A stretch of DNA of 64,000 nucleotides. Source: Pedobacter sp. Leaf194 (GTDB taxonomy: Bacteria > Bacteroidota > Bacteroidia > Sphingobacteriales > Sphingobacteriaceae). The position numbers and the translations under genes are program-made. The notes beneath the pieces were generated by a model. The model had not been told where the DNA came from. It did no database searches and saw nothing but the letters and a program-made list of their open reading frames with translations. This document shows positions 1-63,765 of this stretch, in pieces. The first letter of the stretch is position 1, and every line of letters starts with the position of its first letter. The DNA lies in the NCBI RefSeq assembly GCF_001423945.1, contig NZ_LMPU01000012.1:1-64000 (forward strand), written 5' to 3'.

Positions 1-131
1 TATTGATCTACCCATCTTGTCAATAAAGACCGCGATAAACCCCACTTAAATGCTACTGCTGTAAGAGAATCGCCCTCTAAATGTTCTTTAACAACTTCGG
101 CTTTAAAAGCCGCATCATACTTCTTGTTCAT
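1..131 (-). CDS. IS3-family transposase OrfA, N-terminal fragment
   Basis: The ATG is at 131-129 and the reading frame runs off the window after 43 codons. The visible protein starts MNKKYDAAFKAEVV and continues with a helix-turn-helix that includes AFKWGLSRSLLTRWV. This is the DNA-binding domain of IS3/IS150-type OrfA (HTH_Tnp_1 family). Its role is to bind the IS ends; the catalytic DDE part is normally supplied by OrfB through frameshifting and would lie to the left. A stem-loop followed by five T lies directly before the ATG. Whether the element is intact cannot be judged. Confidence 0.75.
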   Translation of the reverse strand, partial: MNKKYDAAFKAEVVKEHLEGDSLTAVAFKWGLSRSLLTRWVDQ

Positions 132-27640: not shown

Positions 27641-28609
27641 TTGAAAAGTAAAAAATCAATTATCCAATCAGCTATAAGCACATTGGAGCTGGAAGCCGCG
27701 GCAATTTTAAACGTTGCGAAAAACCTAAGCGACGATTTTGAAAAAGTGGTATCAACCATTTTACAGTGCAAAGGTCGCGTTATCGTTACCGGCATTGGCA
27801 AGAGTGCCATAATTGCTCAGAAAATTGTTGCAACCTTTAATTCTACAGGTACACCTGCGATTTTTATGCATGCAGCAGATGCGATACACGGCGATTTGGG
27901 AATGATCCAGATTGATGATGTGATAATTTGCCTGTCGAAGAGCGGCAATACTCCGGAAATCAAGGTGCTGATACCGTTATTAAAAGGCGCAAAAAACAAG
28001 CTCATTGCCATGGTCGGAGAAACAAAGTCGTTTCTGGCCCAGCATGCCGATTTTATACTAAATACTTCGGTGGAGAAAGAAGCCTGTCCGCATAATTTGG
28101 CGCCAACAACCAGCACCACTGCACAGTTAGCCATGGGCGATGCGCTTGCAATTTGTTTATTGGAGAGCAGGGCGTTCAATGAATCTGATTTTGCAAAATA
28201 CCATCCTGGCGGTTCTCTAGGCAAAAAACTTTACCTGAAAGCAGGCGATTTAGCTTCCTCAAATGAAAAACCTTCAATAAGTCCGTTGGCATCAGTTAAA
28301 GAGGTTTTAATCGAAATTAGTAAAAACCGTTTGGGTGCAGTTGCTGTTATTGATGAGAAAAATGAGGTCTTAGGAATCATTACAGATGGTGATATTAGGC
28401 GGATGTTGGAGAATAATACTGACATTGAAAATTTAAGCGCTCAACAAATAATGGGGAAAACGCCTAAAAGCATTCAACGTGAAGCGCTTGCGGTTGATGC
28501 GCTCGCCATGATCAAAAGAAATAACATTACGCAACTATTAGTTTTAGACAAAAATACCTATTTTGGCATCATACACCTGCACGATTTATTGAATGAGGGC
28601 ATTGTGTAG
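27641..28609 (+). CDS. kdsD: arabinose-5-phosphate isomerase (KpsF/GutQ family)
   Basis: The 322-residue protein has an N-terminal SIS domain (GRVIVTGIGKSAIIAQKI; CLSKSGNTPEI) and two C-terminal CBS domains (about 205-320). It converts ribulose 5-phosphate to arabinose 5-phosphate, the precursor used by KdsA. The start is TTG 27641 because no ATG precedes the conserved IIQSAISTLELEAAAI segment in frame. The manC gene follows after 14 bases and is likely in the same operon. Confidence 0.93.
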   Translation: MKSKKSIIQSAISTLELEAAAILNVAKNLSDDFEKVVSTILQCKGRVIVTGIGKSAIIAQKIVATFNSTGTPAIFMHAADAIHGDLGMIQIDDVIICLSKSGNTPEIKVLIPLLKGAKNKLIAMVGETKSFLAQHADFILNTSVEKEACPHNLAPTTSTTAQLAMGDALAICLLESRAFNESDFAKYHPGGSLGKKLYLKAGDLASSNEKPSISPLASVKEVLIEISKNRLGAVAVIDEKNEVLGIITDGDIRRMLENNTDIENLSAQQIMGKTPKSIQREALAVDALAMIKRNNITQLLVLDKNTYFGIIHLHDLLNEGIV

Positions 28610-28623
28610 ATTTAAATTTTAAA

Positions 28624-29715
28624 ATGAATAAAGACTTTTATGCTCTAATTATGGCCGGCGGCGTTGGAAGCCGTTTCTGGCCGGTAAGCCGTACAGAATA
28701 CCCTAAACAGTTTATCGATTTTTTTGGTGTTGGTAAAACATTAATCCAAAGCACGTACGAGCGGTTCCTTCAAATCTGCCCACCTGAAAATATTTTTATC
28801 GTTACTAACGAAATCTATTCAGATTTAATTAAGACTCAAATACCGGAAATTACTGAAAACCAAATACTCGCCGAGCCGTTGTTGAGAAATACAGCGCCTT
28901 GTATTGCCTACGGCTGTATGAAAATTTCAGAACTGAACCCGAACGCAACCATTGTTGTCGCACCTTCAGATCACACAATTGCCGACATGCCGGGTTTTGT
29001 TTCTTCAATAGAACAGTCGTTGAGCGCTGCTTCAGGAAACGACTGCCTGATAACTTTGGGTATAAAGCCTAACCGTCCGGATACGGGTTATGGATATATT
29101 CAACATACAGACCATGTTCTAAATACAGATAAAGACCTGCATAAGGTTAAAACATTTACCGAAAAGCCGAATCTTGAACTTGCCAAGTCTTTCATTCAAA
29201 GCGGGGATTTCCTATGGAATGCTGGTATTTTTATCTGGTCGGCAAAGGCTATTCTAAAATCGTTTCAAAAATATCTGCCTGATATGTATGAGATTTTTAG
29301 CTCCGGAAGAAACGAAATGAACACTCCAAGGGAAAAGGCATTTATAAATAATGCTTACTTTCAATGCACCAATATCTCCATCGATTTCGGAATTATGGAA
29401 AAAGCGGAAAATGTTTACGTTCTGCCGGCTGACTTTGGATGGTCTGATTTAGGAACCTGGGCTTCGATATATGAAATGGCAGATAAAGACTATGTTGGCA
29501 ATGCTGTTATTCCGTCTGACCAGGTAATTATGTTCGATTCATCTAATTGTATGGTTAATGTACCAAAGGATAAATTGGTGATTTTGAATGGATTGCACGA
29601 CTTTATAGTTGTTGAAAACAATAATATGCTTTTAATTTGTCCACGCGATGAAGAACAGCGGGTTAAAGAATTTGTTGCCGAGGTGAAATCGAGGTTTGGC
29701 AATAAATACATTTAG
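28624..29715 (+). CDS. manC: mannose-1-phosphate guanylyltransferase
   Basis: The 363-residue nucleotidyltransferase makes GDP-mannose from mannose 1-phosphate and GTP. The signature is YALIMAGGVGSRFWPVSRTE plus PKQF at the N-terminus, with VVAPSDHTI, FTEKP and LWNAGIFIW following. It lacks the C-terminal phosphomannose isomerase domain of bifunctional forms. It sits 14 bases after kdsD, so both feed cell-surface glycan synthesis. Its TAG stop shares bases with the stop of the convergent DUF5995-like gene (TTAG at 29712-29715). Confidence 0.95.
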   Translation: MNKDFYALIMAGGVGSRFWPVSRTEYPKQFIDFFGVGKTLIQSTYERFLQICPPENIFIVTNEIYSDLIKTQIPEITENQILAEPLLRNTAPCIAYGCMKISELNPNATIVVAPSDHTIADMPGFVSSIEQSLSAASGNDCLITLGIKPNRPDTGYGYIQHTDHVLNTDKDLHKVKTFTEKPNLELAKSFIQSGDFLWNAGIFIWSAKAILKSFQKYLPDMYEIFSSGRNEMNTPREKAFINNAYFQCTNISIDFGIMEKAENVYVLPADFGWSDLGTWASIYEMADKDYVGNAVIPSDQVIMFDSSNCMVNVPKDKLVILNGLHDFIVVENNNMLLICPRDEEQRVKEFVAEVKSRFGNKYI

Positions 29716-49991: not shown

Positions 49992-50576
49992 TTATTGAAG
50001 CTGTTCTGCCAGGCGAATTAGATTATCGAAGGTTCGATTTGCACTGGTTACGCAGAGCGCATAATCCTCCTCTTTAACCGTTTCATTCAATACATTGAGA
50101 AATGTTTTCCATTTTGCGCCCAATTGCTCACCATAAACGCCGTAATAGTTCAATCCGGCTTCATGACCCTCAAAATTCCGGTTAGAAAGCAAGTGTTTCT
50201 TTATAACGTTACCGCCAAGTGTAGCGCCCTCGAGTACGTAAAATGCACCTAATACTGCTGCATTGTTTTTCTCAGGAATAAAAAGCTCGAAATCTAAAGC
50301 CGGCAAGGTGAGCGGGTCGATGTTCCAATAGGTCAGGTCGCGTTCCAGTGAAGTGAGTTTAAGCCTCGAGTTCATTTCCATCTTATTGGCAATGTTTGCA
50401 TCTAAGCTATTCGCGAGCGTATTTTCTAATTTTTGATGAACAATGTAGTTAACGATGAGCAGTGTTTTATATTCTTCAACGCTGAGCGAACGGTTCATAA
50501 TTTCGTTTACGAACATCATTGCTTCAAGCGCCTTATGCCTATCAGCAGTTTCGCTTCTTAATAAATTGGAAATCAT
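49992..50576 (-). CDS. bphO: biliverdin-producing heme oxygenase
   Basis: From the ATG at 50576 the enzyme has 194 residues. The proximal heme ligand is H14 in ETADRHKALE. The distal helix region EGATLGGNVIKKHLL and YYGVYGEQLGAKWKTFL fit bacterial BphO/HemO proteins. It opens heme to biliverdin IXalpha, the chromophore of bacteriophytochromes. It is the third gene after the phytochrome and its response regulator, on the same strand, so the operon makes both the photoreceptor and its pigment. The TTG-started frame from 50618 adds only hydrophobic residues and is not preferred. Confidence 0.9.
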   Translation of the reverse strand: MISNLLRSETADRHKALEAMMFVNEIMNRSLSVEEYKTLLIVNYIVHQKLENTLANSLDANIANKMEMNSRLKLTSLERDLTYWNIDPLTLPALDFELFIPEKNNAAVLGAFYVLEGATLGGNVIKKHLLSNRNFEGHEAGLNYYGVYGEQLGAKWKTFLNVLNETVKEEDYALCVTSANRTFDNLIRLAEQLQ

Positions 50577-50642
50577 ACAGGAGATAATTTTTAAAAAACA
50601 AAAGATCCGAATCAGCACCCGAATCTTTGCAAAGATGCAGGA

Positions 50643-51062
50643 TTAATTTAACCTTAGGTGCTGGTTAAACCAAAAATCGTGTACGGAGTGTACACACTTT
50701 ACAAGCTTGTCGTAACCATCGGGTTTTGTTAAATAGGCATTTGCACCGAACTCAATTGAAGCTTTTACGTCATCAGGATTATCTGAGGTTGAAAAAAGAA
50801 TAACCGGGATGGATTTAAGATAGGGAATATCTTTAATAAACTTTAAAAGGTCTAAGCCTGATAAACCTGGCAAGTTTAAATCAAGCAAAATTAACTTTGG
50901 TTTTGTTTTGCTGTCGGCAAAGTTTTGCAGTCTTGCAAGCGCTTCCACCCCATCTTCAACAATGGTTAAATTTAAAGTTTCCTTAACTTCCTGAATGGCA
51001 CTTTGCATAAAAAATGCATAGTCCACATCATCCTCTACATAAAATATATCCGGCGTTTTCAT
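50643..51062 (-). CDS. single-domain response regulator of the phytochrome operon
   Basis: The 139-residue protein is a lone receiver domain of the Rcp1/BphR type: acidic pair EDDVDYAFF, phospho-acceptor Asp in LILLDLNLPGLSG, Ser/Thr switch in VILFSTSDN, and Lys in YLTKPDGYDKL. It has no output domain. It begins one base after the phytochrome kinase stop codon, so it is very probably the kinase's phosphorylation target. Confidence 0.93.
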   Translation of the reverse strand: MKTPDIFYVEDDVDYAFFMQSAIQEVKETLNLTIVEDGVEALARLQNFADSKTKPKLILLDLNLPGLSGLDLLKFIKDIPYLKSIPVILFSTSDNPDDVKASIEFGANAYLTKPDGYDKLVKCVHSVHDFWFNQHLRLN

Positions 51063-51063
51063 T

Positions 51064-53277
51064 TTAATTATTCTTAAAAGCTACATAAAAAGTAGAACCA
51101 ACATTAAGTTTGCTTTCAAACCAAACTCTTCCATTATGCTTTTCAACTACCCGTTTTACAATAGCAAGCCCTACCCCTGTTCCCTCAATGTCTTTAACAT
51201 TATCCATCCGCTTAAAAAGCTCAAAAACTCTGTCGTAATAACGGTTATCAATTCCTATACCATTATCTTTAACAGCGTAAATCGTTTCATTACCATCTAT
51301 ATACGCAGAAACCTCAATCTTGGGTTTATCAACCATCAGCGAATATTTTACGGCATTGCCAAGTAAATTTGTAAATACCTGGGCAATCATTGTTTTATCT
51401 CCTTTTATATCTGGCAATTGCCCTAAAATAAGTTCGGCTTTGTCTGCTTTAAAAGCCGACCATACCTCAACGCTCACCTCCTGAACGAGGGCTTGCATTT
51501 CGACGGTTTCAAAATTGATTTCAGAGCGGCCAACCCGGGCGAGGTTGAGAATTTCTTTTATCAAAAAATTCATCTTATCTGCGCCTGCTAAAATCCTACC
51601 TAACATTTTTCTTCCGTTTTCGTCGATGCTTTTATTCTTGAGCATCAACTCGGCATACGTTTTTATTGAGGTTAAAGGCGTTCGTAAATCATGAGATATG
51701 GTGTAACTAAAGGTATCAAGCTCCTCGTAAGCAGATTGAAGCTTTTCATTTAACAACCTTATCTCATTGGCCTTTTTGTTCAAATCTGTAATAATTATCT
51801 CCCGGATACGCAACACGGATGAAATCTCCTCCTGAAGCCACTTTTCAGATGTATTATTTACGACCTGAGCCCAGGTTTCGAAAGATTTTCTGGGCGACAG
51901 ACTCAGCAATCCGTTTTCTGAGGGTGTTACTGGTTTTTCAGGATTCCCAGCCCAGTTAACAGTTTCTATTTGCTCAGGTTTAAACCAGATAATCATTTCA
52001 TTAAGTTCTTTACTTAATGAACAGGATAAAATCCCTGAAGCAACATTCTTATAGTTTTTCGCCGGATGAAATATTTCGGATAACCTGTGTGTATAATAAA
52101 CGGACTCATCAGTACTGGATTTCAACCATTCGGCCAACTCCAAAATATCTGCGCTGTCGGGTACTTCGCCAATTGTTTTTAATTCGTTCTCAAAAACGAG
52201 CGCAACACCGGTTGCTTTTGTAACATTTAATATTGTTCGCTTATGGCAGGTTAACGCATCCGTTAAATACTTGTCGCGGTTTAACTGGTCTGAAAGTATA
52301 TTTGCGGTCTCTTTAAATTGTTGCACAATTTCAGAATCTTCCTCACCCTGTCGATATTCAAGTGCTGAAGAAAGAATTTGCCCGATTAATTTAGAACCTT
52401 CGCGGGCCTTGTAATCTATAAATTTCGGACTGTAGTTGTGGCAGGCAATCAGCCCCCACAATTCGCCATGCGAAATCAGCGAAATACTAAAGCTGGATTG
52501 TACGCCCATATTTTTCAGGTATTGAATATGTATCGGCGAAACGGCTCGCAAACTGCTGTTTGTTAAATCCAGTGGATGCTCATCCCTAAAGGTTATAATT
52601 TCGGCATCCAGTGTGTTAACGTTTGCAATTAGCCTGGTCAAATTGAGTTTATAAAGTTCTCTGGCTTGTTTTGGAATATCAGAAGCCGGATAGTGCAATC
52701 CAAAAAATGGCTCCAGCTTTTCTTCTTTTTCTTCCGCGACAACTTCACCATGGCCATCATCGAGGAACTTGTAGATCATTACGCGGTCGTAACCGATTAG
52801 TTGTTTTACCTCGGTAGCTGCACGCTTTAGCAATGCAGAAACGCTTTTTCCCTGCAACATAGCAGAAGCCGAACGCCCGATTGAACTTTGTAAATCGTAT
52901 TGTAAGGTTACTGGCTCGAACTCCAAGAGCCAGTCATGCGAAGAAGATGTTATTACTAAATAGAACGGACGATCGTTAATTTCCAGGGGATGAGGGGCAA
53001 TTGCATCGAAGCTTTTTCTTATGATGCCAAGTTTTAACAAATCCTCTACACTAAAATGTGGGTCTTGTTGTTTAATAAATTTATCGATGATGTTTAATGG
53101 CATCTCCAACAAATCCTTTGGCGGGCAATTGAGAAAGGCCTGCGCATTCTCGCTGATGTAAGAAATTTTGCCTGTTGATTTATCGACAGCAATTAAAAAA
53201 CCATGAGATTGTACTTTTCCGGGAATGTGGATAGGTTCTTTATCACAATTCGTTAGATCTACAGAGAATTTATTCAT
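51064..53277 (-). CDS. bphP: bacteriophytochrome histidine kinase
   Basis: The 737-residue cytoplasmic red/far-red light sensor has the order PAS (about 10-120), GAF (135-305), PHY (320-500), HisKA (515-585) and HATPase (620-735). The biliverdin-binding Cys is C11 in TNCDKEPIHIPG. The GAF motif PASDIP is at 197-202, with chromophore-pocket His at H250 and H280. The PHY tongue motif PRKSF is at 462-466, and the phospho-acceptor His is H529 in YTISHDLRTPL. All photochemical key residues are kept, so it should be functional. A well-formed promoter lies at 53293-53322. Confidence 0.96.
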   Translation of the reverse strand: MNKFSVDLTNCDKEPIHIPGKVQSHGFLIAVDKSTGKISYISENAQAFLNCPPKDLLEMPLNIIDKFIKQQDPHFSVEDLLKLGIIRKSFDAIAPHPLEINDRPFYLVITSSSHDWLLEFEPVTLQYDLQSSIGRSASAMLQGKSVSALLKRAATEVKQLIGYDRVMIYKFLDDGHGEVVAEEKEEKLEPFFGLHYPASDIPKQARELYKLNLTRLIANVNTLDAEIITFRDEHPLDLTNSSLRAVSPIHIQYLKNMGVQSSFSISLISHGELWGLIACHNYSPKFIDYKAREGSKLIGQILSSALEYRQGEEDSEIVQQFKETANILSDQLNRDKYLTDALTCHKRTILNVTKATGVALVFENELKTIGEVPDSADILELAEWLKSSTDESVYYTHRLSEIFHPAKNYKNVASGILSCSLSKELNEMIIWFKPEQIETVNWAGNPEKPVTPSENGLLSLSPRKSFETWAQVVNNTSEKWLQEEISSVLRIREIIITDLNKKANEIRLLNEKLQSAYEELDTFSYTISHDLRTPLTSIKTYAELMLKNKSIDENGRKMLGRILAGADKMNFLIKEILNLARVGRSEINFETVEMQALVQEVSVEVWSAFKADKAELILGQLPDIKGDKTMIAQVFTNLLGNAVKYSLMVDKPKIEVSAYIDGNETIYAVKDNGIGIDNRYYDRVFELFKRMDNVKDIEGTGVGLAIVKRVVEKHNGRVWFESKLNVGSTFYVAFKNN

Positions 53278-56469: not shown

Positions 56470-57240
56470 TTAAGCTCCTTTCTTAGAACCCAAACTCTGC
56501 ATAAGCTGATCGTATAAGTCATCACTGGTCGCTTTCTGCGGCTTGATTTTCTTCACAGTTGCCCGTTTACCTTTAGCTTTTGCTTTAATGATTTTAAGTA
56601 GCTCATCACTGTAATCATCTTTAAAAGCACTCAAATCGAATTTTGAACTATACTGTTTTATTAGCGCAAGGCCAACATCCATTTCTTTCTTTGTAATCGA
56701 AATATCTTCAACTTTCGTAATTTCAGACAAATCTCTAATTTCCTGTTGAAAGCGTATTTTTGTAACAACGATAACGCCATCCATGGGATGAATTACGCAA
56801 AGGTTTTCAGTGTTTCGAAGTACAAACCTTGCTACACCTGCTTTTCCTGATTTCTCCAAGGCCTTTAACAATAAAGCATAAGCTTTTCTACCCTGTTTTT
56901 CAGGCTCCGTGTAATATGATGTTTCGTAGTATACAGGATTAATTTCCTTGATGTCAACAAAGTTTTCTAGCTCAATGATTTTCGTTTTCTCTGGTGCCGC
57001 TTCTTCAAAGTCGTGCTTATCAAGAATTACGTACCTATCTTTTAAGAAATACCCTTTAACAATTTTATCGTAGGGAACCTCCTTCTGGCTATTCTCATTA
57101 ACGCGAAGAAATTTAATTTTCCCGTGGTCGCGTTCGTCAAGCATATCGAGATCAAGGTTGCTATTTTGCACACCAGAAAACAACTTAACAGGGATATTTA
57201 CCAATCCAAATCCAATGGAACCTTTCCAAATCGACCTCAT
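56470..57240 (-). CDS. ku: non-homologous end-joining protein Ku
   Basis: From the ATG at 57240 the protein has 256 residues and starts MRSIWKGSIGFGLVNIPVKL, the bacterial Ku signature. DMLDERDHGKIKFLRVNENS, ELENFVDIKEINPVYYETSYY and the minimal Ku core follow, ending in a Lys-rich tail (KAKGKRATVKKIKPQKATS). It forms a homodimeric ring on DNA ends and recruits LigD. No ligD is in the window, so the ligase partner must lie elsewhere. It is divergent from the glycosyltransferase gene. Confidence 0.95.
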   Translation of the reverse strand: MRSIWKGSIGFGLVNIPVKLFSGVQNSNLDLDMLDERDHGKIKFLRVNENSQKEVPYDKIVKGYFLKDRYVILDKHDFEEAAPEKTKIIELENFVDIKEINPVYYETSYYTEPEKQGRKAYALLLKALEKSGKAGVARFVLRNTENLCVIHPMDGVIVVTKIRFQQEIRDLSEITKVEDISITKKEMDVGLALIKQYSSKFDLSAFKDDYSDELLKIIKAKAKGKRATVKKIKPQKATSDDLYDQLMQSLGSKKGA

Positions 57241-57379
57241 ATTAAAATTTTTTAGAAATTGCCTTATTAACAAGTTTGCAAATGGTATTGTTTGAATTTT
57301 CTTGGTTCATAATTTCCCCAATTCCAAACCATTTGTGTGTTTCAATGTTATTTCAATATCTAATCTTTTGAAATAGTAT

Positions 57380-59650
57380 ATGAAAATTGCCTACATTTCC
57401 ACCTATCCACCACGAGAATGTGGTTTAGCAACGTTTAATCAGAATTTGGTTAATGCTTTAGGTTTAAATCCATCCTACGATGCTAATAAAAGTTTCATCG
57501 TGGCAATGAACGAATCGGATAATCTTGACGAACACGCCTATCCAAAAGAAGTTAAATTTATTATCCGACAGCAAAACCAACAAGATTATATAGACGCTGC
57601 CGACTTTATCAATAAAAGCGATGTTGACACCTGCATAATCGAACATGAGTTTGGTATTTACGGCGGCAACAGTGGTGTATTTCTATTATCATTGATAAAT
57701 AATTTACAAAAACCTTTTATAACAATCCTGCATACGGTTTTGAAAGACCCAAGTTTTATGCAGCAAACTATTATTAAAGAGATTTCATTGAAGTCATCTA
57801 AAATAGTAGTGATGAGCAAAAAGGCTGTCCTATTTTTAACAAGCATTTACCAGATTCCTCAAAAATCTATTGAGTTAATTGAGCATGGTGTTCCTGATTT
57901 GGAACCAATTCCTGGTAATGAGGTTGCAAAAAGTGATTTATTTAAACAACGCAAAGTCTTGTTTACCTTTGGGTTGATAAGCAGAAATAAAGGGCTGGAA
58001 ACCGTAATCAAGGCGCTTCCGTCAATTGTTGAGCGTCATCCAGATGTGCTGTATGTTATTTTAGGAAATACTCATCCTGGTGTTGTAAAGCATAATGGAG
58101 AGGAGTATCGCGACAGCTTAAAATCTTTAGCCAAAGAACTGGGCGTAGAAAATAACATCGCATTTGTAAACAAATTTGTTTCGGAAGAGGAGTTGCACCA
58201 ATATTTAACGGCCTGCTATGTTTACATTACGCCATACCTGAACGAGGCGCAAATTACCAGCGGAACGCTTTCTTATGCAGTTGGTGCAGGCGCCGCCGTG
58301 GTTTCTACACCTTACTGGCATGCGCAGGAACTCCTTGCAGATAACAGGGGCAAATTGTTTGATTTTAAAGACGATATCCAACTTGCTCAAATCGTTAATA
58401 CGCTTCTTGATGATGAAAACAAACACCGTGAACTAAAGAACAATGCTTACCAATATGGGCTAAAGTTGCGCTGGCCTGCAATTGGCAATGTTTACCTCAA
58501 AGTTTTAAGAAACGCACTAACAGATGGTAAAAAGCCGGGAAGAACGATACCCCCAATCATTGATGTAGACAATATGCCGGCTTTAAACCTGAATCATGTT
58601 GCCCTACTTACTGATGATACCGGTATTATTCAACATGCAAAGTTTGGAATACCAAATCTAAAAGAAGGTTATTGCATTGATGACAATGCCAGGGCACTAA
58701 TTTTATCGCTGTTAGCTTACGATCAGGATAAAAATCAAAAAGCCTTGAAATTAATGCCCGTTTACCTGAGTTTCATTCAATATATGCAACGTGAGGATGG
58801 AAATTTCAGAAACTTTTTAAGCTTTAACCGTAGCTATCTTGATGAGGTCGGTTCTGAAGATTCGTTTGGCAGAACAATCTGGTCTTTAGGTTACTTAATC
58901 TGCACCGGCCCGAATAACTCGTACAGAGAATTTGGTAAGGAATTATTCTCGAACTCGGTGCCGCATTTCAAAGACTTGAAATACCTTCGTGCTATTGCAA
59001 ACACAATTATTGGTATATCATACTATCTCTGTGCTCACCCTGGTGATGAACTTTTAGTAAAAGAAATCAACAGACTGGCGAAAACCTTGACCGAATCGTA
59101 CAAACAACACAAAGATGGAGAATGGACCTGGTTTGAAGACATCCTGACCTATGACAATGCAATTTTGCCACTAGCCTTGCTCAGTCACTATGAGGCAACC
59201 AACAATAAAGAATCTTTTAATATAGCAATGGAAAGCATTGCGTTTTTAAATAGCTTTTCATTTGAGAATGGATATTTAAATCCGGTTGGAAATGATGGCT
59301 GGATGAAGAAACATGGCAAGAACCCGGTTTACGACCAGCAGGCACTAGAGACCATGGCAATGGTTTTAATGTATTCGAAAGCATTCGAAGTTACAAAAGA
59401 CGATAAATACTTAAGTTTAATGCAATTAAGCTACGAATGGTTTTTAGGGAAAAACAGTTTGCACATTCCACTCTATGATTTTGAAACGCATGGTTGTGCA
59501 GATGGTTTACAGTTTAACAGTGTGAACAGAAACCAGGGCGCTGAAAGCACGCTTGCCTATTTTATCTCACATCTTACTGTTTTAAAGGCTGCTGAAATCG
59601 AATTTCAGACTTTATCATCTCCACTAGTGGATGAAGAGAAATGTATTTGA
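57380..59650 (+). CDS. GT4 glycosyltransferase fused to a helical glycosidase-like domain
   Basis: The 756-residue protein has an N-terminal GT-B, GT4-like domain at about 1-380: YISTYPPRECGLATFNQNLV, EHEFGIYGG, LFTFGLISRNKGLETVIKAL and PYLNEAQITSGTLSYAVGAG near the donor site. A second domain at about 390-745 is all-helical, with IDDNARALILSLLA, WTWFEDILTYDNAILPLALL and an NQGAEST segment. This is the layout of an (alpha/alpha)6 barrel with acidic and aromatic pocket residues. It is convergent with a GH130-like gene, with a shared terminator. The donor is likely a nucleotide sugar such as GDP-mannose, by inference from context only. Confidence 0.85.
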   Translation: MKIAYISTYPPRECGLATFNQNLVNALGLNPSYDANKSFIVAMNESDNLDEHAYPKEVKFIIRQQNQQDYIDAADFINKSDVDTCIIEHEFGIYGGNSGVFLLSLINNLQKPFITILHTVLKDPSFMQQTIIKEISLKSSKIVVMSKKAVLFLTSIYQIPQKSIELIEHGVPDLEPIPGNEVAKSDLFKQRKVLFTFGLISRNKGLETVIKALPSIVERHPDVLYVILGNTHPGVVKHNGEEYRDSLKSLAKELGVENNIAFVNKFVSEEELHQYLTACYVYITPYLNEAQITSGTLSYAVGAGAAVVSTPYWHAQELLADNRGKLFDFKDDIQLAQIVNTLLDDENKHRELKNNAYQYGLKLRWPAIGNVYLKVLRNALTDGKKPGRTIPPIIDVDNMPALNLNHVALLTDDTGIIQHAKFGIPNLKEGYCIDDNARALILSLLAYDQDKNQKALKLMPVYLSFIQYMQREDGNFRNFLSFNRSYLDEVGSEDSFGRTIWSLGYLICTGPNNSYREFGKELFSNSVPHFKDLKYLRAIANTIIGISYYLCAHPGDELLVKEINRLAKTLTESYKQHKDGEWTWFEDILTYDNAILPLALLSHYEATNNKESFNIAMESIAFLNSFSFENGYLNPVGNDGWMKKHGKNPVYDQQALETMAMVLMYSKAFEVTKDDKYLSLMQLSYEWFLGKNSLHIPLYDFETHGCADGLQFNSVNRNQGAESTLAYFISHLTVLKAAEIEFQTLSSPLVDEEKCI

Positions 59651-59667
59651 GCCGCTGATAGTTAAAC

Positions 59668-59703
59668 AAAAAAAGGCTGACAAATTTGTCAGCCTTTTTT
59701 TTT
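59668..59703. terminator. bidirectional terminator between GT4 and GH130 genes
   Basis: AGGCTGACAAA (59674-59684) and TTTGTCAGCCT (59685-59695) form a perfect palindrome, flanked by A7 on the left and T9 on the right. Confidence 0.88.
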
Positions 59704-59707
59704 GAAC

Positions 59708-61183
59708 TTAATTGTTACCACTATTTTCGAGGAGCTTATTTAATAAAAGCTCCAGGTTTACTGTCGCGAACGTTGAACTATAATCTGACAAACCGTATGG
59801 AATTATCAGCTCTCCGTTGCTAATTATTGAACCGCATGAATAAACAACATTGGGCACATAGCCTTCGCGTTCATCATTATTAGGAATAATTAATGGCTCT
59901 TTTAAGTGACCAATTTCCTTACTTGGATCATCCAAATCAAGTAAACTTACCCCAATGCAGTATCTTCTCATCGGGCCAACGCCATGCGTGATTACAATCC
60001 AGCCTTTTTCTGTTTCTATCGGCGACCCACAGTTTCCAATCTGCACTAAATCCCAATCGAACCTGGGCTGTTTTAACAAAATTGGATTCTCCCAAACATT
60101 AACTTTATCAGAAAACATCAGGTAATTATTCCAGCCGTCAATTCTGCTCATCATTACGTACTTTCCGTTAATTTTGCGGGGAAACAGCGCCAAATTTTTA
60201 TTTTGGGCCCCGTCACCATAGAGCGGAATCACTTTAAATTCATAAAAATCTTCAGTTTTTACCAGTTTGGGAATAATCAGAGAGCCATCGAAAGCAGTGT
60301 ATGTTGCATAATAAACAATTCCACCATCATCCTTAATAAATTTCACAAAGCGTGCATCTTCGATACCTTTACGTTCAAATTCCGAGATTGGAAAAATTAC
60401 GCGGTCTGAAATATCTGTATCTTTCGAAAAGGTAATGGTATGATAGGTATCAGACAACCAAAGCACTTTATCATATTCCATCAACCGCTGTGGATTATCT
60501 TTATGGAGCGTTTTAGAATCTTTGATTATGTTACTTAAACTTGTGTATTCGAATTTTTCATCAAGTTTAGTTTCCATTTCTTCCAAAACCGAAACGTCTA
60601 TTTGTGCATAAGCTGCTTTCTTCAAAAACATCTTTTTTACATAAATAGCGTTTTTTACAACCTCAGCCTCATCAACATAATTTCCTACAGGTAAAACCTG
60701 AATATTATTCTTCGCATCAATAAGGGCACGCCTAAAAACAATTGATGAAATATGGCCTTCGCCAACGGCCCTAAAACTTATGATAACACGCTTTTCGCCT
60801 TCCACCAAATCTTTCTGATCGGGATCTTCAATTATACTTGGATTAAAAAAGGCGGCTGATTCTATGGAATACTCGTGCGTGAAGTAAGCACCAATCAGTA
60901 GCTTTGTGTAAGGATGTAAATCTTCCGGTTCTACGTTAAGTTCAATAAACTGCTTTTTTAGCTTTTTGCAGTGGCGGTTAAAAATTTTTGTAATGTTTCG
61001 GTGCCTTTTTGAATACTCCTGAAGTATAGGTGATATTATCGAAAAGACCTTTTCATCCGAAAACTCAAGCACTTTCTTTATCACCTGAAGTGCTCTTTCA
61101 TCACCATTAAAGAAGAACCGGGCGATAACTCTCTTGGTATCCGGATTTACTTTTACGGGTTTTCGTTCTATGTATAATCTCAT
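59708..61183 (-). CDS. GH130-like mannoside phosphorylase/hydrolase
   Basis: The 491-residue protein has the five-bladed GH130 (DUF377) domain at about 235-490: KVLWLSDTYHTITFS, the catalytic Asp D276 in GIEDARF, then YATYTAFDG, RIDGWNNYLMFS, IGNCGSPIETEKGWIVITHG and YGLSDYSSTFATV. The first 230 residues are a helical extension longer than in most characterised members. GH130 enzymes phosphorolyse beta-mannosides and are inverting. The typical motif around the catalytic Asp is kept. The neighbouring convergent GT4 gene suggests a pair acting on the same glycan. Confidence 0.88.
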   Translation of the reverse strand: MRLYIERKPVKVNPDTKRVIARFFFNGDERALQVIKKVLEFSDEKVFSIISPILQEYSKRHRNITKIFNRHCKKLKKQFIELNVEPEDLHPYTKLLIGAYFTHEYSIESAAFFNPSIIEDPDQKDLVEGEKRVIISFRAVGEGHISSIVFRRALIDAKNNIQVLPVGNYVDEAEVVKNAIYVKKMFLKKAAYAQIDVSVLEEMETKLDEKFEYTSLSNIIKDSKTLHKDNPQRLMEYDKVLWLSDTYHTITFSKDTDISDRVIFPISEFERKGIEDARFVKFIKDDGGIVYYATYTAFDGSLIIPKLVKTEDFYEFKVIPLYGDGAQNKNLALFPRKINGKYVMMSRIDGWNNYLMFSDKVNVWENPILLKQPRFDWDLVQIGNCGSPIETEKGWIVITHGVGPMRRYCIGVSLLDLDDPSKEIGHLKEPLIIPNNDEREGYVPNVVYSCGSIISNGELIIPYGLSDYSSTFATVNLELLLNKLLENSGNN

Positions 61184-62421: not shown

Positions 62422-62548
62422 TAACAATTTTGGGTATTTAGCAAAGTAACAAAAATCGGGAGCTTTAGTTTAACTGAACTAAGCAAGTTTATATGCTCAA
62501 GGCTGGAAAAAAAAATATGGAAAATACAGGAATTGCAAGAAGAATTAC

Positions 62549-62556
62549 TAATTTTG
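62549..62556 (+). promoter_or_regulatory. Bacteroidota -7 promoter element at DUF763 start
   Basis: TAATTTTG matches TAnnTTTG and ends six bases before the TTG start at 62563. Confidence 0.45.
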
Positions 62557-62562
62557 TTAGTA

Positions 62563-63765
62563 TTGAAAAGGTCAGGAAGTACAGATTTACCATTACATTA
62601 CGGTCAGGTTCCGCCCTGGCTTGCAGAACGTATGGCCAAATTAGGTTTGGCAATCACTGAATCAATTTTGGCAGAGTATGGCAAGGCAGAGGTAATCAGA
62701 AGAATGAGCAATCCATTCTGGTTCCAAAGTCTAGGCGCCGTTATGGGTATGGACTGGCATTCTTCAGGCATTACAACCTCTGTGATCGGTGCCTTAAAAA
62801 AGTCTATCAATCCACGCTCAAAAGAACTTGGTATTTACATCTGTGGTGGAAAAGGGAAACACAGCAGGGCCACACCTGATGAACTTTTGAGAATTGCGGA
62901 TAAAACGGGATTGAATGGAGCGGAGTTGGTACGAGCGAGTAAACTTAGTGCGAAAGTCGATAATACCGCCATTCAGGATGGATTTCAGCTTTATCTCCAC
63001 AGTTTTATTTTGAGCAGCGAAGGCGATTGGGCTGTTGTTCAGCAAGGCATGTGCGATTCCACATCGACGGCCAGACGCTATCACTGGCATTCAGAGAATT
63101 TAAAATCTTTTGTTGAAGAGCCTCATACTGCCGTTTGCGGTATAAACCAAGGGAAAATTTTAAATTTAACTGCTAATGAAGCGGCTGAAACGCGAACCAG
63201 CATGTTGGCGATTACGGATGAAAAACCAAATAAAATGCTCGCTGAAGTTCAGAAGTTAGTTATGCCTTCACATCACGATGTGCGGGCAAAAGACGTTGAT
63301 TTAAAAAGATTGGGTAGTATTTTGTGGTTGGCTCAGGAAAAAAAACCTGCTGATTTTGAGTCACTTTTGATGCTTGAAGGTATGGGGCCGAGAACGCTAC
63401 AATCAATGGCTTTAGTTAGTGAAGTGATTTATGGAACGCCTTCGCGTTTCAGCGACCCGGCCCGCTATTCTTTTGCAAACGGTGGTAAAGATGGCCACCC
63501 ATTTCCTGTACCCGTTAATGTTTACGACGAGACAATTAAGGTTTTGCAGAAAGCCGTTGAGATGGCAAAAATCGGTAACACTGATAAACAGCAGGCCATT
63601 AAAGCTTTACATCAGATTGCAAAAAATGCCGAACAGGACTTTGTTCCAAATATGGATTTCGACAGGTTAATAGAAAAGGAAAGAGCGGAAAGCTGGAAAT
63701 TTGGTGGACGCACAGTTTTCGGAATTGAAAAGCCACCTTCTGTGAAGCAGCTAAGCCTGTTTTAA
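62563..63765 (+). CDS. DUF763 protein
   Basis: From TTG 62563 the protein has 400 residues and starts MKRSGSTDLPLHYGQVPPWL, the characteristic DUF763 N-terminus. GAVMGMDWHSSGITTSVIGALK, GIYICGGKGKHSRATP and WAVVQQGMCDSTSTARRYHW follow. Residues from about 265 contain a helix-hairpin-helix-like LEGMGPRTLQSMALVSEVIYG and then SDPARYSFANGGKDGHPFPV. The family is best known from archaea and scattered bacteria and is thought to act on nucleic acids, without proven activity. The TTG at 62533 would place the start before the promoter element and adds residues outside the family. Confidence 0.88.
   Translation: MKRSGSTDLPLHYGQVPPWLAERMAKLGLAITESILAEYGKAEVIRRMSNPFWFQSLGAVMGMDWHSSGITTSVIGALKKSINPRSKELGIYICGGKGKHSRATPDELLRIADKTGLNGAELVRASKLSAKVDNTAIQDGFQLYLHSFILSSEGDWAVVQQGMCDSTSTARRYHWHSENLKSFVEEPHTAVCGINQGKILNLTANEAAETRTSMLAITDEKPNKMLAEVQKLVMPSHHDVRAKDVDLKRLGSILWLAQEKKPADFESLLMLEGMGPRTLQSMALVSEVIYGTPSRFSDPARYSFANGGKDGHPFPVPVNVYDETIKVLQKAVEMAKIGNTDKQQAIKALHQIAKNAEQDFVPNMDFDRLIEKERAESWKFGGRTVFGIEKPPSVKQLSLF

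Follow-up and report, generated by a model that had tools for sequence, protein, structure and literature searches.

A glycosyltransferase-helical barrel fusion paired with a long GH130 protein in Pedobacter: a possible cytosolic unit for mannoside synthesis and recycling

In mycobacteria the guanosine diphosphate (GDP)-mannose dependent GT4 enzyme ManT and the (alpha/alpha)6 endomannosidase MmpH act on one mannose polymer, according to the available part of the report (PMC9883506). Leishmania contains mannogen, an intracellular beta-1,2-mannan whose turnover is due to GH130-fold enzymes including GT108, as described in the excerpted text of that study (PMC8950772). The Teth514_1788/1789 cluster of Thermoanaerobacter comprises GH130 beta-1,2-mannoside phosphorylases and an ATP-binding cassette (ABC) importer, and the accessible section of the paper proposes a salvage function (PMC4264767). 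Here, we compare these systems with a gene pair in a stretch of 64,000 nucleotides from Pedobacter sp. Leaf194 (contig NZ_LMPU01000012.1, positions 1 to 64,000; this whole stretch is called the window). The closest named relatives of the window genome are Pedobacter species. One gene codes for a fusion of a GT4-type glycosyltransferase (GT) domain with a helical barrel, the other for a long-form GH130 protein.

ManT together with MmpH is the nearest functional precedent, i.e., a GT4 enzyme and a helical-barrel hydrolase on one mannose polymer. They differ from the window pair in that they are separate proteins, deal with alpha-1,4 linkages, are accompanied by methyltransferases and, as far as the four-gene cluster is described in the source text, by no GH130. 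No methyltransferase was found among eight Pfam-scanned proteins between 53.8 and 63.8 kb of the window, which sets the locus apart from a methylmannose polysaccharide (MMP) cluster. With Leishmania mannogen the window pair shares a GH130-fold enzyme and the proposed intracellular beta-1,2-mannan, yet in the excerpted Leishmania text a GT4-barrel fusion has no counterpart. Membership of the window GH130 in GT108 was considered and is not supported: the 18 PDB chains which it matched with an E value of 10 or lower included none of GT108. Like the Thermoanaerobacter cluster, the pair has a GH130 of the Glu-Asp type with a GT4 gene and a GDP-mannose gene in its vicinity. Unlike the pair, that cluster has an ABC importer and, in the accessible section, no reported GT-barrel fusion.

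We incline to the view that the pair is a cytosolic unit which makes, trims and recycles a mannoside. This view draws on sequence comparisons, namely on the domain assignments, the conservation of the active sites, the linkage across phyla, the links of standalone barrels and the lack of export signals. The two genes are convergent with a gap of 57 bp between the open reading frames (ORFs). PF00534 (Glycos_transf_1) matches residues 183-358 of the fusion at a cut-off of 26.4 bits, and PF04041 (GH130) matches residues 259-482 of its neighbor at a gathering score of 26 (Table 1). An earlier note on this DNA, prepared from the letters only, had described a 756-residue protein with a GT4 domain and a convergent, GH130-like neighbor; ORFs, profile matches and arrangement agree with this description.

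Table 1. Coordinates of the fusion gene, the long GH130 gene, their domains and motifs, and the ManC-like gene (window positions; residues refer to the respective protein).
Feature	Residues	Position	Strand	Basis or conservation
GT4-type/helical-barrel fusion, 756 aa		57380..59650	+	ORF; PF00534 76.8 bits; 65 full-length homologues aligned
GT-B glycosyltransferase domain	1-385	57380..58534	+	Profile matches and Foldseek of model
Q291-x7-Y299 in place of canonical GT4 EX7E, incl. invariant S294-G295-T296	291-299	58250..58276	+	65-sequence alignment
C-terminal helical barrel, probably glycosidase-like	392-756	58553..59647	+	Profile to 7tem; partial GH88
IDDNARAL	433-440	58676..58699	+	D435, N436, R438 65/65; D434 64/65
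WFEDILTYDNA	584-594	59129..59161	+	W584, E586, Y591, N593 65/65
NQGAEST	718-724	59531..59551	+	G720, E722, S723 65/65
Long-form GH130 protein, 491 aa		59708..61183	-	ORF; PF04041 95.9 bits; PDB best matches beta-1,2-oligomannan/beta-1,2-mannobiose phosphorylases
GIEDARF, catalytic Asp D276 and Glu of GH130_NC/beta-1,2 group	273-279	60347..60367	-	Alignment
About 100-residue insertion, propeller blades 1-2		60434..60733	-	N114, R138, S146 before; E275-D276 after
Extra N-terminal region	about 1-105	60869..61183	-	R18, V19, R60 31/31 long; R60/H61 columns gapped 33/33 short
Mannose-1-phosphate guanylyltransferase-like (ManC-like) gene		28624..29715	+	PF00483 and PF22640; own-genome search; possible GDP-mannose supply, non-adjacent

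The pairing extends far beyond the window. We aligned 65 full-length fusions, i.e., those of the window, of five plasmid loci and of 59 Bacteroidota loci; loci L124 and L143, which lack a full-length fusion, were excluded. In 52 of the 65 loci the distance between the fusion and a GH130 gene of either type is 3 kb or less; in two more it is up to 7.4 kb. Chance adjacency is estimated at below 1% (the 4.57 Mb window genome has four GH130 matches, three of them above the cut-off). With E up to 1e-10, the barrel domain was found in 77 of 395 Bacteroidota genomes; most of the ORFs in question have 730-880 residues and are thus fusions. The N-terminal half of the long GH130 was found in 55. When the 73 strong barrel matches are counted, leaving out the weaker ones in G054, G076, G117 and G400, 46 genomes have both genes, 27 the barrel only and 9 the long GH130 only (Fisher odds ratio 59, p 7e-32, kinship being ignored). 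From these 73 genomes 60 loci were fetched; of the 13 omitted, one is the window genome, which is represented by the window itself, one is a further Pedobacter, and the remaining 11 are for the most part near-duplicates within one genus.

Within the genus Pedobacter the conservation is almost complete. Of 36 genomes (that of the window plus 35), 34 carry a full-length fusion, and these 34 also carry a full-length long GH130. One of the other genomes, G021 (78% complete), contains a fusion fragment of 228 residues and no long GH130; G022 (99% complete) lacks both genes. Three genomes (G003, G010, G033) keep both, though far apart or on separate contigs. In 40 of 46 named Pedobacter loci the GH130 gene is convergent within the flank; five are without it there and one is at a contig edge.

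The pair is also carried by plasmids of Alphaproteobacteria and Ilyobacter, mostly as an operon. A complete module of fusion, short GT4, short GH130 and long GH130 exists in Ilyobacter (Fusobacteriota) and in several Bacteroidota, and in Deinococcus fusion, short GT4 and a GH130 protein are consecutive. Co-occurrence across genomes, the check which had been named beforehand, thus holds widely in Pedobacter, in Bacteroidota and on plasmids. The plasmid records name the pair only 'glycosyltransferase family 4' and 'glycoside hydrolase family 130', and we found no description of the fusion or of the cross-phylum pair in the open-licence PMC literature.

In 16 of 67 loci the fusion occurs together with a short canonical GT4 related to the glucosylsucrose synthase family (e.g., L119, 6997-8064; L125-L136). 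The closest solved relatives of the short GT4 from Ilyobacter-type modules include 7fg9, which is tied to a paper on glucosylsucrose synthase. A glucosyl instead of a mannosyl product, as suggested by this protein, was set aside: no orthologue was found in the window genome (best identity 31%), and the short GT4 can therefore not be essential to the pair in the window. In a genome from the family of the window organism (L143, 8953-11292) GT and barrel are adjacent ORFs of 405 and 374 residues; this split is either a natural fission or a frameshift.

The long GH130 protein retains the active site of its family. E275, D276 and R278 are present in all 31 long and all 33 short GH130s, and the catalytic Asp is kept as the earlier note had stated. 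A Glu instead of a Tyr ahead of the catalytic Asp marks the beta-1,2-mannoside group of GH130 in the available parts of two papers (PMC4264767; PMC4599007), the second of which gives Lys199 of BT3780 as the lysine determinant of the GH130_NC group. In an alignment with two characterised beta-1,2 phosphorylases, K329 of the window protein falls on their NK lysine. The closest solved relatives are 9fj8, a 1,2-beta-oligomannan phosphorylase, and 7fip, a beta-1,2-mannobiose phosphorylase. The residues N114, R138, D276, R347, H400, Y408 and D467 are common to long and short forms. R347 and H400, basic candidates for phosphate binding, occur in all of them and are matched in the two phosphorylases. 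Going by these matching basic positions, the long GH130 would be a phosphorylase and not a hydrolase. Where GH130 acts, at any rate, a beta-1,2 linkage is probable, as far as can be judged from the conserved residues.

The 230-residue N-terminal extension, with which this protein had been credited, is not a single entity. N114, R138 and S146 align with blade 1 of ordinary GH130s; consequently the extra sequence consists of about 105 residues at the N-terminus and about 100 residues inserted between blades 1 and 2. Both segments are absent from the short forms and from the beta-1,2 phosphorylases among the PDB matches.

The C-terminal barrel of the fusion carries the three acidic motifs listed in the earlier note, and the majority of their residues are invariant across the 65 diverse homologues. 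The candidate catalytic acids D435, E586 and E722 are present in all of them, in a pocket which is modelled with low confidence. A barrel profile of 50 diverse members found one solved relative, PDB 7tem (E 8.5e-22). This is the Yersinia exported protein YPO2471, which shares the motifs DD-AR, Y-N and GAES with the barrel, yet is named exported and is unfused; a paper naming YPO2471 was not found in the open-licence PMC literature. GH88 is matched partially by nine of the 50 members (28.3 bits over about 128 residues). The Pfam helical-barrel glycosidase families (GH88, GH127 and others) yielded no full-length match in the 50 members, and further matches were weak and scattered. The proposal of an all-helical domain agrees with the homology to 7tem, with the partial GH88 match and with the mostly helical barrel region of the fusion model; the low confidence of the model in this region qualifies it.

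A different line of evidence comes from barrels which exist as standalone proteins. In all seven loci examined they adjoin GH130 genes. A strong hydrophobic N-terminus, scored by a hydropathy rule and not by a signal-peptide predictor, is present in seven of seven standalone barrels versus none of 65 fusions and none of 31 long GH130s. In L201-L204 a standalone barrel is combined with short and long GH130s and importer-type genes, which in L201 code for a pair of ABC permeases and for a solute-binding protein. A large neighbor belongs to GH2 in both L202 and L203, and its L203 copy has an Ig_mannosidase domain; the L201 copy has weak glycosidase matches only. These four loci are probably a beta-mannoside uptake system with a secreted-looking barrel and two or more GH130s. 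Since standalone barrels occur with GH130 and sugar importers, the barrel and GH130 probably have one glycan as their common target. Most likely, the substrate of the barrel would be the beta-mannoside of GH130, extracytosolic when the barrel is standalone and cytosolic when it is fused. Thus, the C-terminal domain is tied to carbohydrate enzymes by 7tem, by the partial GH88 match and by its GH130 neighbors.

The GT domain is less orthodox than its family assignment would imply. Profile searches match MshA, sucrose-phosphate synthase, PimA and PimB. A Foldseek search with the model of this domain gives MshA as the best match and further the MMP mannosyltransferase and PimB' with GDP-Man. The fusion model was built from 30 sequences which are 77-87% identical; its GT part is usable and its barrel part is weak, so the Foldseek result informs the GT domain only. 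The GT-B fold, with MshA on top, and the PF00534 match place the domain in GT4/GT group 1. The EX7E motif of GT4 is absent from the alignment of all 65 fusion homologues, and by this signature the domain does not belong there. In its place Q291, S294, G295, T296 and Y299 are invariant in all 65, as are K204 and H118. Y299 occupies the position of the second Glu of the canonical short GT4 (hhalign); the first Glu corresponds to Q291 only if aligned ungapped, and profile alignments place gaps there.

This deviation matters for the chemistry of the pair. Canonical GT4 enzymes are retaining and form alpha-mannosides from GDP-mannose. GH130 enzymes act on beta-mannosides, a conflict which the earlier note had overlooked. 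Therefore, synthesis followed by phosphorolysis requires that the GT domain be an atypical one or serve to build a primer. In the available part of a modelling preprint, the first Glu of GumH is near the anomeric carbon, the second contacts the ribose, and Thr260 of the inverting GumI takes the position of Ala284 in the retaining GumH. T296 of the fusion coincides with the GumI Thr260/GumH Ala284 position, in the ungapped reading only. The loss of EX7E and the position of T296 are a hint, not proof, that the GT domain may work by inversion, as a beta-mannosyltransferase. In that case, the conflict between the alpha product of a retaining GT4 and the beta substrate of GH130 would disappear. A bolder and doubtful, but by no means far-fetched, extension is that an inverting GDP-mannose beta-mannosyltransferase makes a cytosolic beta-1,2-mannan which the barrel would trim or cyclise and the long GH130 would phosphorolyse. 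The barrel would then constitute a new family of glycosidases or transglycosidases.

The gene context was examined in 16 opened records out of 30 plasmid records matched by the fusion. ManC-like genes are present in six of these loci, ManA-like genes in five, and phosphomannomutase (PMM) or HAD-type PMM genes in three; ten of 16 have at least one of them. In Sphingobium amiense ManC, ManA, fusion, GH130 and PMM follow codirectionally after groES-groEL. On five sphingomonad plasmids (L192, L193, L197, L199, L200) ManC, fusion and GH130 are located beside grpE-dnaK and next to an integrase, with Hsp20 genes visible in L192 and L193. These five loci appear to be copies of a single island, a mobile stress island which includes a sugar module. 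In two Rhizobium loci a gene for an AGE-family epimerase comes after the pair. A HAD protein in Croceicoccus and Sphingomonas paeninsulae hinted at a sugar-phosphate product; this candidate was dropped, the protein matching the HAD-type phosphomannomutase PF03332. The fusion gene of Sphingomonas paeninsulae (L198, 5043-7822) appears split into several short ORFs.

The chaperone genes, which neighbour six of the 16 plasmid loci, bear on a different explanation. The fusion could be an ordinary retaining GT4 for an alpha-linked or non-mannose glycan, with GH130 acting on another molecule and both genes being paired by a shared regulation, e.g., by stress. Recognition of the GT domain as GT group 1 and the use of uridine diphosphate (UDP)- as well as GDP-sugars by its nearest solved relatives are in line with this. 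We nevertheless consider it quite improbable: EX7E is lost throughout the 65 homologues, and the close linkage of fusion and GH130 together with the association of standalone barrels with GH130 and GH2 point to one glycan.

Several observations weigh against a cytosolic unit of synthesis and recycling. A retaining GT4 and a beta-acting GH130 may handle different bonds. For 13 of the 65 fusions no GH130 gene was detected in the surrounding 3 kb. The barrel portion of the fusion model is poor, and the GH130 model, made from 20 sequences which are 87-92% identical to the window protein and mostly stop around residue 475, has a predicted local distance difference test (pLDDT) value of 45.6. The GH130 scores against NCBIfam are far below the cut-offs, 144.3 versus 550 bits for BtaManbiosPhlase and 135.1 versus 450 bits for beta-1,2-mannobiose phosphorylase. 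The ten of 16 plasmid loci with genes for GDP-mannose are not ten independent cases because five of the six ManC-bearing loci look like one island. The 64 Bacteroidota loci yielded one weak ManA-like match (L172) and no ManC or PMM; the GDP-mannose link rests on Alphaproteobacteria. The ManC-like gene of the window is separated from the pair by 28 kb. It is the sole such match in the window genome, and its TIGR01479 score is 287 bits at a cut-off of 373. Finally, in three loci of marine Bacteroidota (L144, L148, L154) the fusion is part of a run of sugar ABC importer genes, coding for a solute-binding protein and permeases, together with a secreted-looking barrel and two GH130s; the importer genes were confirmed by Pfam in L144 and a downstream GH2 in L144 and L148. 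This context fits catabolism. The statement that the pair is not a classical uptake locus is true in the window, where the genes between about 50 and 64 kb revealed neither an uptake transporter nor a TonB receptor or SusD, but it does not apply to the family as a whole.

The marine loci would suit a salvage pathway, in which GH130 phosphorolyses incoming beta-mannosides and the resulting mannose 1-phosphate is converted to GDP-mannose, from which the fusion makes another glycoconjugate. The Thermoanaerobacter cluster, in the accessible description, likewise combines two GH130 beta-1,2-mannoside phosphorylases with genes for a guanylyltransferase, a GT4 protein and an ABC importer. We deem salvage unlikely. 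A sugar importer is found neither beside the pair in the window, nor among the conserved Pedobacter neighbors, nor directly beside it in the 16 plasmid loci (the Devosia locus has a carbohydrate ABC permease gene at a distance of about 9 kb), and salvage leaves unexplained why a cytosolic barrel is retained in the fusion. GT4 includes reversible trehalose synthases. Trehalose phosphorylases of GT4 exist as well, according to partial source text. By analogy, the GT domain might run in reverse or reversibly and convert an imported glycoside with GDP or phosphate to an activated sugar, and the import genes of the three marine loci agree with this. Here the chaperone islands and the contexts of GDP-mannose synthesis imply supply of a donor, not its recovery, and we regard this as very improbable.

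We return to the cytosolic unit which makes, trims and recycles a mannoside. The fused barrel would cut, trim or transfer within the same glycan, either to keep its length in range or to yield new primers. Going by the chemistry of the families, the long GH130 with phosphate would split off terminal beta-mannosyl units as alpha-mannose 1-phosphate, which a guanylyltransferase would convert back to GDP-mannose. Synthesis and recycling of an internal or surface mannoside had been thought plausible. The co-occurrence and the carbohydrate link of the barrel lend better support to the internal variant, synthesis plus phosphorolysis. A role for a surface glycan is not favored because export signals are absent from all fusions and long GH130s scored, and neither a polymerase nor a flippase was present among the scanned neighbors. 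Most likely, the product is a reserve or stress-protective sugar, since several relatives reside in chaperone islands; this is the weakest step of the proposal.

Other genes of the window are noted for completeness. A Ku-type DNA-repair gene (56470-57273) is directly upstream of the fusion and divergent, and it is matched in 43 of 46 Pedobacter loci; a DUF763 protein (62533-63765, 457 bits) is matched in 24 of 46. A mechanosensitive (MscS) channel gene is located at 53.8-54.6 kb, and a SpoIIAA-like protein and an alpha/beta hydrolase are also among the neighbors (Pfam). At 49992-53277 a heme oxygenase is beside a response regulator and a bacteriophytochrome-like histidine kinase, the latter two named by reading the sequence; this group is a probable light-sensing set. 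A gene for a KpsF/KdsD-like sugar-phosphate isomerase precedes the ManC-like gene (27641-29715).

To our knowledge, a mannogen-like reserve is known only from trypanosomatids. If the bolder extension, i.e., a cytosolic beta-1,2-mannan made by an inverting GT domain, is true, bacteria of several phyla would possess such a reserve or protectant. The setting in chaperone islands raises the question of whether the sugar is protective under heat or osmotic stress. The chemical synthesis of beta-mannosides is difficult, as stated in the accessible section of PMC4264767, and for this reason a single protein which makes a beta-mannan would be useful. The fusion would further be a test case for a GT-B enzyme of the GT4 type losing its retaining signature. 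If the proposal is right, this widespread pair would define an internal mannoside cycle of bacteria and would add an unclassified family of helical-barrel glycosidases.

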